Below, piece after piece: positions 32,388 to 37,200 of a stretch of DNA of 64,000 bases. The translations under genes were made by a program, and so were the position numbers. The stretch lies in contig NZ_JAGSYG010000001.1 in NCBI RefSeq assembly GCF_025685655.1, forward strand, positions 124,001 to 188,000, written 5' to 3'. The DNA is from Acidicapsa ligni. GTDB lineage: Bacteria; Acidobacteriota; Terriglobia; Terriglobales; Acidobacteriaceae. Position 1 is the stretch's first letter. Each line of letters opens with the position of its first letter. The notes beneath the pieces were generated by a model. That model was not told where the DNA came from. It did no database searches and was given only the letters and a program-made list of their open reading frames with translations.

Positions 32388-33410
32388 TTAGAAGTCTTCG
32401 TGTTGGAAGCCAACTTCACCGGCGACTGCTACCTGGTAAGCAGAGACGCGGCGTTCGAAGAAGTTGGTGAGCTCCTGCACATCCTGCAGCTCCATGAAGG
32501 CGAATGGATTTTTGCTGCCGAAGATTGCAGGCATACCCAGGCGCACTACGCGAGAGTCGGCGACGTATTCGAGATACTGACGCATGTCGCGAACCGACAG
32601 GCCAGCGACTCCGCCGGAAAGTAGATCTTCCGCGAACTGAAGCTCGCATTCAACGGCCTCGCGCATCATGGTGACGATACTGGCTTCGAGCTCTGCATCG
32701 AACAGCTCTGGATGCTGGCTGCGAACGATGTTGACGACCTCGAAAGCAAACTCAAGGTGGCAGCTCTCGTCGCGGAAAACCCAGTTGGTACCGGCAGCAA
32801 GACCGTTAAGCAGGCCACGGCTGCGCAGAAAATAGACATAAGCGAAGGCGGCAAAGAAGAAGAGGCCCTCAATGCATCCAGCGAAGCAAACGAGATTCAA
32901 AAGGAATTGCTTCTGCTCCTCAGGGGTGCGGAGTTCGTCGAGTTTCTGGATGGAGTCCATCCACTTCATGCAGAAGTCTGCTTTTTTGCTGATGCTCGGG
33001 ATGTTTTCGACAGCGGCGAAGGCAGCGGCGCGAGCTTCAGGGTCAGGCACATAATTATCCAGCAGGGTCAGGTAAAACTGGACGTGAACGGCCTCTTCAA
33101 AAAGCTGGCGCGAAAGGTAAAGGCGCGCTTCCGGCGAGTTGATGTGTTTGTAGAGATTGAGCACCAGGTTGTTCGACACGATCGAATCGCCCGTGGCAAA
33201 GAAGGCAACAAGGCGCTGGATCAGGTGAATCTCCGCAGGCGTGAGGCGCGAGCGAAGATCGACGAGATCAGTGGAGAAGTCGACTTCTTCAACCGTCCAC
33301 GTGTTCTTGATACCGTCTTTGAACATGTCAAAGAAGACCGGGTATTGCATAGGACGCAGGGTCAGCGAGAGGCCTGGATCAAGGATGGACGTCGGGGATT
33401 TGCTGGACAT
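32388..33410 (-). CDS. nrdB: Class Ia ribonucleotide reductase, beta subunit
   Basis: Small subunit that holds the diiron-tyrosyl radical used by NrdA to make deoxyribonucleotides. 340 residues. All ligands are visible: D75 (ATGDSIVSNN), E106 and H109 (FEEAVH), E181 (GCIEGLFF), E215 and H218 (RDESCHLEF). The radical Tyr is Y113, four residues after H109, as in the E. coli enzyme. The conserved C-terminus that docks into NrdA is short (GFQHEDF). It lies 104 bp downstream of nrdA in the same direction and should share the cobalamin-controlled transcript. Confidence 0.95.
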   Translation of the reverse strand: MSSKSPTSILDPGLSLTLRPMQYPVFFDMFKDGIKNTWTVEEVDFSTDLVDLRSRLTPAEIHLIQRLVAFFATGDSIVSNNLVLNLYKHINSPEARLYLSRQLFEEAVHVQFYLTLLDNYVPDPEARAAAFAAVENIPSISKKADFCMKWMDSIQKLDELRTPEEQKQFLLNLVCFAGCIEGLFFFAAFAYVYFLRSRGLLNGLAAGTNWVFRDESCHLEFAFEVVNIVRSQHPELFDAELEASIVTMMREAVECELQFAEDLLSGGVAGLSVRDMRQYLEYVADSRVVRLGMPAIFGSKNPFAFMELQDVQELTNFFERRVSAYQVAVAGEVGFQHEDF

Positions 33411-33514: not shown

Positions 33515-35929
33515 TTACTGGCAGGCTTCGCAGGACTCAGGATTGTCTAACGAGCAGGCTACAGCTTGGATCGTATCGACTGCGCGGTTGGCTATGGCTA
33601 CTGTGGTCTTGGCAATTTTTGTTGCAGGTCTCGAACGCAGGTAGTAAGTGGTCTTGATTCCCTTCTTCCATGCATACATATACATGCTGCTGAGACGACC
33701 GATATTGGGCGATTCAGCGAAGAGGTTCAGCGATTGGCTCTGGTCGATAAAAGCTCCGCGATCGGCGGCCATGTCGATGAGCGAACGCATGGGAACTTCC
33801 CACACGGTGCGGTAAATCAATTTGAGTTCGTCGGTGATCTCATCGATTTTCTGAATGGAGCCTTCGGCAAGCTTGATGCGGGTGCGCATCTCTTCAGACC
33901 ACAGGCCGAGGGCCTTGAGTTCGTTCACGAGGTACTTGTTGATCTGCATGAACTCGCCCGACAATGTCTCGCGCTTGAACATGTTGGAAATCTGCGGCTC
34001 GATGCACTCATAGCAGCCCACGATGGACGCAATGGTTGCAGTCGGTGCAATGGCGATCATGAGCGAGTTGCGCATGCCCACAGTCTTCATGCGAAGACGC
34101 AGAGCATCCCAGCGCGCAGTGTCCTTTGGCGTAACGCCCCAGAGATCGAACTGGAATTCACCATGCGCGGCGCGAGTTTCGTTGAAGGCCGCATGCGGTC
34201 CATCTTTCTCGGCCAGATCGCACGAGGCCGAGATAGCGTGGAAATAAATCTCTTCCTGGATCTTGGCTGAGAGCTCGCGGGCTTCTATCGAGTCAAAGGC
34301 CCAGCGCAGTTGGAAGAAGACATCTTGAAGGCCCATGACGCCAAGGCCCACTGGACGCCAGCGCGAGTTCGATACGGCAGCCTGCGAAACCGGGTAGTAG
34401 TTAATGTCGATGACGCGGTCGAGCATAGGTACAGCGTGGCGAACTGTGGCCGCAAGCTTATCGAAATCGAACTTGCCATCCGTCAGGTGACGGCCAAGGT
34501 TGATGCTGCCGAGATTGCAGACGGCTGTCTCTTCGTGCGACGTAACCTCGGTGATCTCGGTGCAGAGATTAGAGAGATGCACCGTGTTGCCGGGATGGCC
34601 GGTCTGGTTGCACTTTATGTTGCAGGCATCCTTGAAGACCATCCAGCCATTGCCGGTCTCGGCAAGCGTACGCATCATGCGGGCGTAGAGGTCGCGGGCC
34701 TTGATCTGGCGCTTGTAGAGCTGTTTCTGTTCGGCCTCAATGTAGGCCTTTTCAAAGGCTTCACCATAGAGGTCGGTGAGCTGCGGCACGTCCTTGGGAT
34801 CGAAGAGCGACCACATGCCGTCCTCATCGGAGCGGCGCATAAAGAGATCGGGAATCCAGTTAGCGAGATTGAGATTGTAGGTGCGGCGTGCTGCATCGCC
34901 GGTGTTATCGCGCATCTCAAGGAAGGACTCGACATCGGCATGCCAGGGCTCGAGATAAACGCAGGCAGCACCCTTGCGCTTGCCGCCCTGATTGACTGCG
35001 GCAACGGACGCATCCAGCGTACGCAGCCAGGGAACGATGCCGTTTGAAAGACCATTGGTGGCGCGGATCAGCGAACCTTCGCTGCGAATGCGATGGAAAG
35101 CAAGGCCGATGCCGCCGGAGAACTTCGACAGCAATGCAATCTGTTTATAGACGTCATAAATCGAATCAAGCGAATCGAGCGGCGAGTCGATGAGGTAGCA
35201 GCTCGACATCTGGCTGTGCTTCGTGCCGCTATTGAAGAGCGTCGGCGAGCTGGGCAGATAATCGTGCGAGGCGAGGAGATTGTAGAAATCCACAGCTTCA
35301 TTCACGCGTGTGGAAAGCCCGGCAGCAACGCGCATGAAAAAGTACTGCGGCGTCTCCGTGACCTGGCGGGTGATTGGGTGACGAAGCAGGTACCTGTCGT
35401 AAACAGTGCGCAGGCCGAAGTACTCAAAGCGGTCGGATAGGCGGTCATCGATGGCCGAGTTCAGCTTGCGCGCATTGGCGTTAACGAACTCCCATGCTTC
35501 CTTGGAGACGACGCCCTCGCGGCTGCCAATCTCGACCGACTGCGAAAAGGAGTAGATATTCTGCCCGGCAACTTCCTTCGAGATGGTCGCGAGGAGTAGA
35601 CGTGCAGCCAGGCGCGAGTATTCCGGCTCCTCGGCAATCAGAGAGGCTGCGGTCTGGATCGAAATGGAATCGAGTTCGCGGGTGCTGGCTCCGTCGAAGA
35701 GGCCACCGATAGTCTTGCTGGCGACGCGGATCGGATCGACGTGAGGAAGACCGTGGCAGCAGCGCTCGACAGCGCGGACGATCTTGTTGACATCAACGGG
35801 TTCGAGGCCGCCGTTGCGCTTGCGGACCTGCATCTGGGGAGTTGGGTCGGCTGGAGGAAAATTCGGGTCGAGGTCAGATAGCGACGACTGGTGGAGCGAG
35901 GCTGAGAGAGCAGATTCAATCGTGGCCAT
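33515..35929 (-). CDS. nrdA: Class Ia ribonucleotide reductase, alpha subunit
   Basis: Catalytic subunit reducing ribonucleoside diphosphates. 804 residues from ATG 35929. An N-terminal ATP-cone (VRKRNGGLEPVDVNKIVRAV) indicates dATP allosteric control. Active-site blocks: SSCYLIDSP (first redox Cys), HLSNLCTEI (Asn, thiyl Cys and Glu), ETAVCNLGSINL (second redox Cys), PTATIASIVGCYECIEPQI, and TTYYLRSRP with the radical-transfer Tyr pair. The C-terminal shuttle is CEACQ. The frame continues upstream to 36154 through the leader, so an alternative ATG at 35980 exists, but those residues read through riboswitch-linked sequence. AAGGAAAGG lies somewhat far (about 16 nt) from the chosen start. Confidence 0.95.
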   Translation of the reverse strand: MATIESALSASLHQSSLSDLDPNFPPADPTPQMQVRKRNGGLEPVDVNKIVRAVERCCHGLPHVDPIRVASKTIGGLFDGASTRELDSISIQTAASLIAEEPEYSRLAARLLLATISKEVAGQNIYSFSQSVEIGSREGVVSKEAWEFVNANARKLNSAIDDRLSDRFEYFGLRTVYDRYLLRHPITRQVTETPQYFFMRVAAGLSTRVNEAVDFYNLLASHDYLPSSPTLFNSGTKHSQMSSCYLIDSPLDSLDSIYDVYKQIALLSKFSGGIGLAFHRIRSEGSLIRATNGLSNGIVPWLRTLDASVAAVNQGGKRKGAACVYLEPWHADVESFLEMRDNTGDAARRTYNLNLANWIPDLFMRRSDEDGMWSLFDPKDVPQLTDLYGEAFEKAYIEAEQKQLYKRQIKARDLYARMMRTLAETGNGWMVFKDACNIKCNQTGHPGNTVHLSNLCTEITEVTSHEETAVCNLGSINLGRHLTDGKFDFDKLAATVRHAVPMLDRVIDINYYPVSQAAVSNSRWRPVGLGVMGLQDVFFQLRWAFDSIEARELSAKIQEEIYFHAISASCDLAEKDGPHAAFNETRAAHGEFQFDLWGVTPKDTARWDALRLRMKTVGMRNSLMIAIAPTATIASIVGCYECIEPQISNMFKRETLSGEFMQINKYLVNELKALGLWSEEMRTRIKLAEGSIQKIDEITDELKLIYRTVWEVPMRSLIDMAADRGAFIDQSQSLNLFAESPNIGRLSSMYMYAWKKGIKTTYYLRSRPATKIAKTTVAIANRAVDTIQAVACSLDNPESCEACQ

Positions 35930-36099
35930 TTTGGGGAATGGTCCTTTCCTTGGGTTCAGGATTCTTGCAACGAGTTTCATTCGTACAAAATCGGGGTTTA
36001 AATTGGGCGCCGGGGAGGATTGGTCACGGGTACGGACAGAAGTCGGCGATAGAACGGCGGACTCGTGCGGATCACCCGATCCTCCCCTCGGAGGCGTGT

Positions 36100-36290
36100 G
36101 TTGCTCATATGCCCTTCGGCATCCTTCTCGGCAGGTATTCGGACTTGCAGGCAACCTGAAAACAGCGACTTCCCAACTCGAAAAGAGCTGGGTACTGAGT
36201 CGGAGCTATCGTTCCTGCTTACCGATGCGGGGCAGTTCCGGAAGTTCGCCGGCTTCCCTTTTTTCATGCTGGTCATGGAAACGGCTCGTG
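36100..36290 (-). promoter_or_regulatory. Cobalamin (B12) riboswitch ahead of nrdAB
   Basis: Read on the minus strand, the leader contains in order AAAAAAGGGAAGCCGGCGAAC (split here: AAAAAAGGGAAGC then CGGCGAAC), TTCCGGAACTGCCCCGCA, a GGTAAGCAGG segment, and the B12 box AAGTCCGAATACCTGCC (36130-36146). These are the conserved core and B12-box elements of adenosylcobalamin riboswitches in the correct order and spacing. It ends about 170 bp before the nrdA start. A G-rich hairpin (CCTCC/GGAGG, about 36085-36105) follows and could be part of the expression platform. Expected effect: repression of nrdAB when B12 is available. Exact borders are approximate. Confidence 0.88.
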
Positions 36291-36663
36291 ATCAGCCACC
36301 GTGAAGTAAATCGACTATATCGTGGATCGGCGGCTGGAGCAACAACTATATGTTGGGGTATATGTGGAAATCCCATGAGTCTCGAAATGCCAATTTGTGC
36401 TCCGTTTTTTGGCAAAAGTCAAATGAGTTTCTGGTACGGAAACTTCTTCGGCAACGGGACTTTAGTCATAGGCTCAAGCTGTTTTTCTCTTGCCTGAAGA
36501 GCTTTTTTGCTCTGTCTAAAAAACACGGCTGTGTGCATTTCAAATCCGGCCGCAAATCCATAGCCACTCCTCCATTCTCCACCTCGCGAACATTATTTTT
36601 CTCAAATGCGTATGGCCTTGCATCCTCACGGGAAATTTGCTGCGGATAAGAAAGTAGAGGCGC
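36291..36663. other. Divergent upstream region of nrdA and the ECF sigma gene
   Basis: About 370 bp, AT-richer than average, lying between the 5' end of the B12 riboswitch and the ECF sigma start. It must hold the nrdAB promoter and the sigma-operon promoter. I found no convincing small gene or palindrome. Confidence 0.4.
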
Positions 36664-37200
36664 ATGAGAGAGCAATTGAGCTGGCAGCCGGACTTCGAGC
36701 AACTCGTAGACGAGCACCAGTCGATGGTTTTTTCGTTGGCATGGCGAATGACAGGCGATCGCGGAATGGCCGAAGAGGTGGCGCAGGATGTGCTCCTTGA
36801 ACTGGACCGCAATCTTCGTAAGCTTAGCTCTGCCGATCATGTGCGCTTCTGGCTGCGAAAGGTTACAGTGCATCGCTCGACGGATGCGCTGCGACGCAGG
36901 AACACGAGGGAGCCTGGATGGGATGAAGGCTTCTGGGTTGAACTTGAGGAACGGCATGGGCTGGTCGAATCCGATGAAGGATCTGCAATGTCCATGCGCA
37001 TTGAGGAATTGATGGCAAGTTTGCCGGAATCACAGCGGGCGGCGCTGATTCTTCGCTACCAGGAAGACCTGACGCCGGAGGAAATTGCAGCGACGTTGAA
37101 GGCTCCGGTAGCGACGATAAAGAGCCAGTTGCAGAGAGGTTTGAAGCTGCTGCGGCTGCGAGCCAGCAATTACCTGAAGGAGTATGTCCGTGGAACATAA
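36664..37200 (+). CDS. ECF-type sigma-70 family factor
   Basis: 178-residue alternative sigma factor. Region 2 is FEQLVDEHQSMVFSLAWRMT followed by GMAEEVAQDVLLELDRNL, the core-binding and -10 recognition helices. A variable acidic linker follows. Region 4 is LPESQRAALILRYQEDLTPE then EIAATLKAPVATIKSQLQRG, the -35 helix-turn-helix. GAGG stands just before the ATG. Its 3' end overlaps the next gene by 17 bp, the usual coupling of an ECF factor with its regulator. It probably controls the genes immediately downstream, but no target promoter motif could be defined. Confidence 0.9.
   Translation: MREQLSWQPDFEQLVDEHQSMVFSLAWRMTGDRGMAEEVAQDVLLELDRNLRKLSSADHVRFWLRKVTVHRSTDALRRRNTREPGWDEGFWVELEERHGLVESDEGSAMSMRIEELMASLPESQRAALILRYQEDLTPEEIAATLKAPVATIKSQLQRGLKLLRLRASNYLKEYVRGT

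Follow-up and report, generated by a model that had tools for sequence, protein, structure and literature searches.

A full-length cobalamin riboswitch precedes the class I ribonucleotide reductase genes nrdAB of Acidicapsa ligni, in a genome that also encodes the B12-dependent class II reductase NrdJ. Our model, which we regard as very probably correct, is that this riboswitch represses nrdAB in response to adenosylcobalamin (AdoCbl) by way of a pairing between loops L5 and L13, so that nrdAB serves as the backup to NrdJ. The ligand, which is most likely AdoCbl, the kissing loop and the sense in which the switch acts are inferred.

A cobalamin riboswitch in the nrdAB leader

The initial annotation had placed a cobalamin riboswitch at 36100-36290 of the window (the whole 64-kb stretch of DNA that was analysed) and had proposed running the Rfam cobalamin model on this leader. 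When the entire window was scanned against 4227 Rfam families with cmscan, RF00174 (Cobalamin) gave a significant covariance-model match at 36113-36318 on the minus strand, scoring 64.5 bits against a gathering score of 31.5 (E 1.2e-13) and spanning the full model (1-189). The interval first annotated covers most of this aptamer but is shifted by 13-28 nt. RF00174 was the sole Rfam match above its gathering score in the window, and a genome-wide Rfam search recovered it at the same place. The aptamer ends 183 nt before the nrdA ATG, on the same strand and directly upstream of nrdAB.

The Rfam alignment of the aptamer contains a GGGAA core followed by the B12 box, in the expected order that had been read from the letters. 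The core and L5 lie in the region CUGCCCCGC (36222-36235, minus strand), which we propose as one half of the kissing loop; the L5 motif, CTGCCCCGC / CUGCCCCGC, is unchanged in 30 of the 31 aptamers listed and altered in locus L119. The B12 box, AGUCCGAAUACCUGCCG (36129-36145, minus strand), carries a single change, G to U, relative to the GAAGACC of its relatives, and the same change is found in the metE riboswitch of its own genome. On the 3' side of the aptamer, a P13/L13 hairpin, CCUCCGAGGGGAGG (36081-36094, minus strand), is the proposed partner of L5: its GGGG is complementary to the CCCC of L5, and CGAGGGG or CGCGGGG is present 3' of the aptamer in 26 of 29 nrdA leaders. Both sides are nearly invariant among the relatives and thus offer no covariation between L5 and L13; the complementarity suggests that the two loops could pair in the window leader.

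The genes downstream agree with the arrangement originally described, in which nrdB follows nrdA behind the riboswitch, as TIGR02506 and PF00268 indicate. The class I alpha subunit gene nrdA (33515-35929, minus strand, 804 aa) matches TIGR02506 at 721 bits against a cut-off of 341 and contains the Pfam ATP-cone, all-alpha and barrel domains; its start is taken as the ATG at 35929 rather than the TTG at 36154 of the mechanical ORF list. The beta subunit gene nrdB (32388-33410, minus strand, 340 aa) matches PF00268 at 268 bits; among the NCBIfam beta-subunit models, even the best, NF005550, stayed below its cut-off (259.8 bits against 309). The long ORF 3' of nrdB runs on the opposite strand.

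NrdJ and other B12-related genes in the genome

The genome (5.68 Mb in 17 contigs, listed as 99% complete) was searched with the PF02867 profile, which identified two large subunits: the nrdA of the window and a second at C1:1022374-1024071. The latter is the class II gene nrdJ, whose presence in the same genome had been predicted from the leader alone. Its 1143-aa product scores 1441.6 bits with NF005122 (cut-off 859) and 545.8 bits with TIGR02504 (cut-off 399.95), and carries a class II N-terminal domain and a TSCPD domain.

The genome contains three cobalamin riboswitches, located at nrdA, at metE on contig C6 (MetE: TIGR01371, 1050 bits) and at a TonB receptor gene on contig C3, whose best NCBIfam matches are B12 receptors (TonB-B12) that lie far below their cut-offs. 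None of the three is associated with nrdJ. The nrdR gene is present on contig C2, apart from nrdJ on contig C1, and a BtuR-type adenosyltransferase is encoded, while a search of the genome for a PduO-type adenosyltransferase found none. The metH gene appears split over two neighbouring frames of 376 aa and 924 aa (G000:C4:490407-494098, minus strand) instead of occupying one. We do not claim de novo B12 synthesis, given that the GATase_3 matches in a single domain search were weak and short. This gene content suggests that the cell uses B12, perhaps imported, to choose between the isozymes MetH and MetE and between NrdJ and NrdAB. With nrdJ, btuR, metH and nrdR in the genome and riboswitches at metE and the TonB receptor gene, AdoCbl should therefore silence the B12-free isozymes.

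The leader downstream of the aptamer and the putative nrdAB promoter

In the predicted fold of the window leader, the 3' side of P13 together with the bases downstream of it, GGGGAGGAU (36069-36087, minus strand), pairs with AUCCUCCCC about 50 nt further on. This would form an anti-P13 helix, the second strand of which is AAUCCUCCCCGG (36010-36021, minus strand). The gain is -19.7 kcal/mol in the window leader (z -2.30 against shuffles); across 29 related leaders the mean z is -0.80, with 9 of 29 below -1, a count that includes locus L100, which was anchored at a wrong, earlier CCGAGGG motif for both this folding and the Shine-Dalgarno folding described below. By these predicted folds, conservation of the helix over the related leaders is suggestive only.

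A Shine-Dalgarno-like stretch, AAGGAAAGGACC, was recognized by eye upstream of nrdA (35940-35951, minus strand). We rejected masking of this site as the output, since a change in accessibility above 0.1 in the bound state had the expected sign in only 6 of 29 leaders and the opposite sign in 1. By simple folding, we estimated how likely the best Shine-Dalgarno-like hexamer was to be unpaired when the P13 3' strand was present and when it was absent; the hexamer was chosen automatically, so that in some leaders it is probably not the true Shine-Dalgarno site. A terminator scan of 35800-36500 detected no intrinsic terminator on the minus strand; the two sites it reported are both on the plus strand.

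Comparison of the leaders points to a putative sigma-70 promoter, TTGCTC-17-TATAGT, at 36314-36342 on the minus strand. A match of at least 9/12 occurs at the equivalent place in 13 of 29 leaders, with 111 of 1450 mononucleotide shuffles reaching 9 anywhere, and the two nearest relatives carry TTGACC-17-TATAGT there. The window's own copy matches at 8/12 by hand count (the script gave a different 8/12 match for the window), and a separate promoter scan of 35800-36500 returned no promoter-like site. NrdR boxes occur at nrd promoters in pairs about three helical turns apart. A palindrome scan of the window leader identified two AT-centred palindromes, CAACATATAGTTGTTG (box 1, 36340-36355, minus strand) and CCACGATATAGTCGATT (box 2, 36309-36325, minus strand), each matching at 12 of 16 positions and separated by 31 bp from ATATAG to ATATAG. 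From the NrdR consensus and the spacing we regard these as putative NrdR boxes, which would make NrdR a plausible second layer of control at the nrdAB promoter. In the two nearest relatives (L116, L117) box 1 alone passed the palindrome scan, and box 2 was not found.

By eye, GCACTACATCTAGTGGC at L008:6495-6511, 5' of nrdJ, resembles a single NrdR-type box. The ORF at 36664-37200 on the plus strand, divergent from the nrdAB leader, resembles a sigma-70-family factor, also by eye, and the small ORF that follows it may be its anti-sigma partner.

Our model is as follows. When AdoCbl is plentiful it would bind the aptamer, and L5 (CCCC) would kiss L13 (GGGG). Kissing would allow P13 to form and the alternative anti-P13 helix to be broken. 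In the P13 state nrdAB expression would fall, and the B12-dependent class II NrdJ would make the dNTPs; once B12 is exhausted, nrdAB would be expressed as the backup. The final output is the least certain step of this model. Because the scan contained no terminator-like site on the minus strand, a translational or Rho-type output would be more likely than intrinsic termination.

The riboswitch and nrdJ within the family

We surveyed 120 Acidobacteriaceae genomes of at least 85% completeness. At least 26 of them carry a full-length class I row at 636.9-665.1 bits among the PF02867 matches listed, a count of full-length rows in which genomes with fragments only are left unclassed; most full-length class II rows in the family score 438-471 bits. 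A class II row is also present in 21 of these 26 listed class I genomes. Among the matches listed, a cobalamin-type riboswitch precedes nrdA in each of the 21 genomes that encode both reductases (20 with RF00174 and 1 with RF01689) and, even at E values up to 5, in none of the five with class I alone (G027, G078, G037, G084 and G115, which are 99, 99, 95, 88 and 98% complete, respectively).

The single RF01689 match, an AdoCbl-II riboswitch at the nrdA of G104 (L094:3401-3477, 60.5 bits), means that two riboswitch classes are found at one gene, nrdA, within the family. The NrdA of G104 does not group with those of G027 and G078, which belong to the same genus; this operon may therefore come from elsewhere. 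Terriglobus roseus DSM 18391 (L009) has two class I rows, with neither a class II row nor an nrdA riboswitch. The two class I rows have identical scores and frame lengths and are about 460 kb apart, a duplicated class I reductase in a genome without nrdJ.

Within the genus, nrdA is present in 11 of 15 genomes, each of which encodes another long frame with weak similarity to NrdA that was taken as nrdJ; two of these assignments (G000, G038) were checked with PF02867, and the nine further ones rest on a long frame at 26-27% identity to NrdA. The riboswitch is present at nrdA in 10 of these 11 genomes. The exception, G129, has kept both nrdJ and nrdAB, with no Rfam match above the cut-off and only a relic of the riboswitch. 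G129 has the same leader as L046, and its nrdA and nrdJ occupy the same places as in G166, the genome of L046; the second row of G166 scores 444 bits. Because the leader and the gene places coincide, G129 and G166 are probably one assembly. Examined by eye, the relic upstream of nrdA (L118/L046) retains the start of the aptamer, while the core has been replaced and the G run of L13 lost; nrdJ is still encoded. By NrdA identity to the window's protein, the nearest named relative is Edaphobacter aggregans (84%), with G120 at 93% and G121 at 87%.

Other riboswitches were observed beside nrdAB in this survey. In G106 and G113 (L097:2791-6750 and L102), another cobalamin riboswitch and an ORF that resembles metE by eye lie 3' of the riboswitch-led nrdAB, so that two B12-free isozyme genes are clustered, both behind switches of their own. 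At L109:2458-2659 and L110:6125-6323, cobalamin riboswitches lie divergent, back to back with the nrdA riboswitch, and the gene behind the divergent riboswitch of L110 resembles a TonB-type receptor by eye.

Phylogenetic weight and the wider genome set

We built a quick NrdA tree, without bootstrap, from 37 rows (26 from the family, a further 9 from the genus, T. roseus and E. aggregans). Of these 37 nrdA loci, 30 share a cobalamin-type riboswitch at an equivalent position. The tree requires four changes for the riboswitch, as few as in 4 of 500 shuffles, and three for nrdJ, the changes not being polarised as gain or loss. NrdA falls into two distant groups of 31 and 6 rows; the riboswitch occurs in both, and in both nrdJ and the riboswitch change. 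Three independent pairs differ in nrdJ, and the riboswitch was concordant in nearly all pairings (sign test p 0.25, a test that cannot reach 0.05 with fewer than six pairs). The co-occurrence of the riboswitch with nrdJ is not significant because the tree gives only three independent contrasts. That the riboswitch at nrdA tracks nrdJ in the family is therefore suggestive.

From a wider set of genomes, 46 of the 80 loci kept were scanned with Rfam, and 45 of these 46 were classed, the remaining one being L026 (244 nt upstream). With class II assigned by PF02867 score band only, 15 of 45 genomes had a riboswitch at nrdA, and 14 of these 15 had a class II row. The exception is L042, a Nevskiaceae bin with a riboswitch at nrdA and no class II row. 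Among the 30 genomes without the riboswitch, a class II row was present in 21, absent in 8 and ambiguous in 1 (L019). Removing the Acidobacteriaceae or their near kin (L009, L010, L046), among which L010 has the riboswitch, left 14 genomes with the riboswitch, 13 of them with a class II row, and 28 without it (class II row in 20, none in 7, ambiguous in 1). The rule thus holds one way only, because 14 of 15 genomes with the riboswitch have class II but so do 21 of 30 without it. A universal rule, by which the possession of both reductases means a riboswitch, is refuted by these 21 of 30 genomes, by L042 and by G129.

Both classes occur without an nrdA riboswitch in, among others, Acidimicrobiia, Planctomycetota and Pseudomonas aeruginosa. 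The riboswitch is also found at nrdA in Xanthomonadales (Lysobacter, Arenimonas, Dokdonella and Rudaea), in Archangium, in a deltaproteobacterial bin and in a Steroidobacter bin. In Lysobacter (L050:6756-6971) and Dokdonella (L052:6366-6579), a further cobalamin riboswitch is located 3' of nrdA in the same orientation.

Divergence of the window copy and alternative readings

Of 79 positions with a conservation of 95% or more among nrdA aptamers, the aptamer of the window differs at 9, the most of the 29 compared; of the other 28, 26 differ at 0-3 positions, L119 at 8 and L123 at 5, the last being cut at its 5' end and excluded from the reference set for the conserved columns. As more conserved positions have changed here than in other nrdA aptamers, the strength of this copy as a switch is uncertain. 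It is conceivable, at something like one chance in a handful, that the riboswitch is real by descent and weakened or decaying here, in which case nrdAB would be largely constitutive, or repressed at high AdoCbl only, with NrdR as its main control. Some of the changed bases presumably lie in P6 and J6/3. The RF00174 score of 64.5 bits compares with 107.5 bits for G120 and 102 for G121, the two nearest relatives, and the putative -35 element reads TTGCTC where the two nearest relatives have TTGACC; G129 lost its riboswitch outright while keeping nrdJ. However, L5 and L13 match those of the relatives, the B12 box differs from theirs by a single base, the window leader has a strong predicted anti-P13 helix, and the raw identity of the window aptamer to that of G120 (157/187) is similar to that between G120 and G121 (180/211). 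The NrdA branch of the window is itself about twice that of its sister (0.075 against 0.039). Nine departures from the nrdA consensus are likewise counted in this genome's metE riboswitch, which presumably works; for that reason we did not adopt outright decay as our reading and retained it as a rival.

The other alternatives appear much less probable than a weakened switch. That the match arose by chance, or resembles a riboswitch in structure without regulating anything, can practically be dismissed: the E value of 1.2e-13 excludes chance, and 30 of the 37 nrdA loci in the tree carry a cobalamin-type riboswitch at this position. A switch that is real and works in another sense, activated by a corrinoid or answering a ligand other than AdoCbl, seems improbable to us. 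An activating corrinoid riboswitch does exist (PMC10653944), and the class can answer several corrinoids (PMC9600662). Against this, the genes behind the riboswitches of this genome encode B12-free isozymes and a TonB receptor, functions whose known mode of control is repression, and in the family survey there was no riboswitch at nrdA where nrdJ was absent. Repression of nrdAB by AdoCbl is therefore the reading that we carry forward.

Discussion

The family data invite a broader and rather doubtful proposal, which we rate as somewhat unlikely: that nrdA acquires or retains the riboswitch only while nrdJ is present, in two distant groups of nrdAB and with either of two riboswitch classes, and loses it along with nrdJ. 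The copy in the window would then be in the midst of retuning or loss, and the aptamer score would gauge how far a lineage depends on NrdJ.

Besides the class I and class II enzymes compared here, NrdDG is the class III reductase. The general isozyme rule is already in print (PMC2211319). In Streptomyces coelicolor, a cobalamin riboswitch is described in the leader of the class Ia genes nrdABS, the class II NrdJ is also present, and nrdAB is thought to serve when AdoCbl is lacking (PMC4991794, citing Borovok et al. 2006). Our system likewise combines a riboswitch-led class I nrdAB with a class II NrdJ in the genome; it differs in belonging to the Acidobacteriota rather than the Actinobacteria and in having no nrdS. 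In Cutibacterium (Propionibacterium) acnes, nrdAB and nrdDG follow a cobalamin riboswitch logic with NrdR boxes (PMC3848588). The two nrdAB operons are alike in having a cobalamin riboswitch; the C. acnes promoter also has an NrdR box, for which ours has candidates, and nrdJ lacks a riboswitch in both, an annotated one in C. acnes (PMC3848588). There, however, nrdR shares an operon with nrdJ, and RNA-seq points to early termination (PMC3848588); here the two genes lie apart on C2 and C1, and the terminator scan detected no site on the minus strand. The initial annotation had pointed to actinobacteria as the place where such control is known, and the nrdAB of Streptomyces and Cutibacterium bear this out (PMC4991794, PMC3848588).

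Deltaproteobacteria with NrdJ carry B12-elements upstream of nrdDG, for which repression of the B12-free isozyme was proposed (PMC545781); the isozyme logic is the same, with a class I reductase here and NrdDG there. In metE cobalamin riboswitches, the L5-L13 kissing loop stabilises P13 or its counterpart in the bound state, with an alternative helix, and the platforms studied either use a terminator or occlude the translation start (PMC10653944, PMC11260477). Our proposal shares the isozyme logic and the putative L5-L13 pairing with these riboswitches at a different gene, and the window genome has a metE riboswitch too.

Our literature search, which left most subscription journals outside its scope, returned no title or abstract on an nrdA cobalamin riboswitch in Acidobacteriota, and the accessible text of PMC2667541 makes no mention of an nrdA cobalamin riboswitch. 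The principle is already known from actinobacteria and deltaproteobacteria, and what we describe is a well-supported new example and not a new kind of system. It extends the known isozyme-switching rule to the Acidobacteriota. The family also provides natural experiments: genomes without nrdJ that have no riboswitch, one relative with the other riboswitch class and one with a broken relic. Together these make it testable, in soil bacteria, whether the sensing of B12 picks the reductase that builds DNA.
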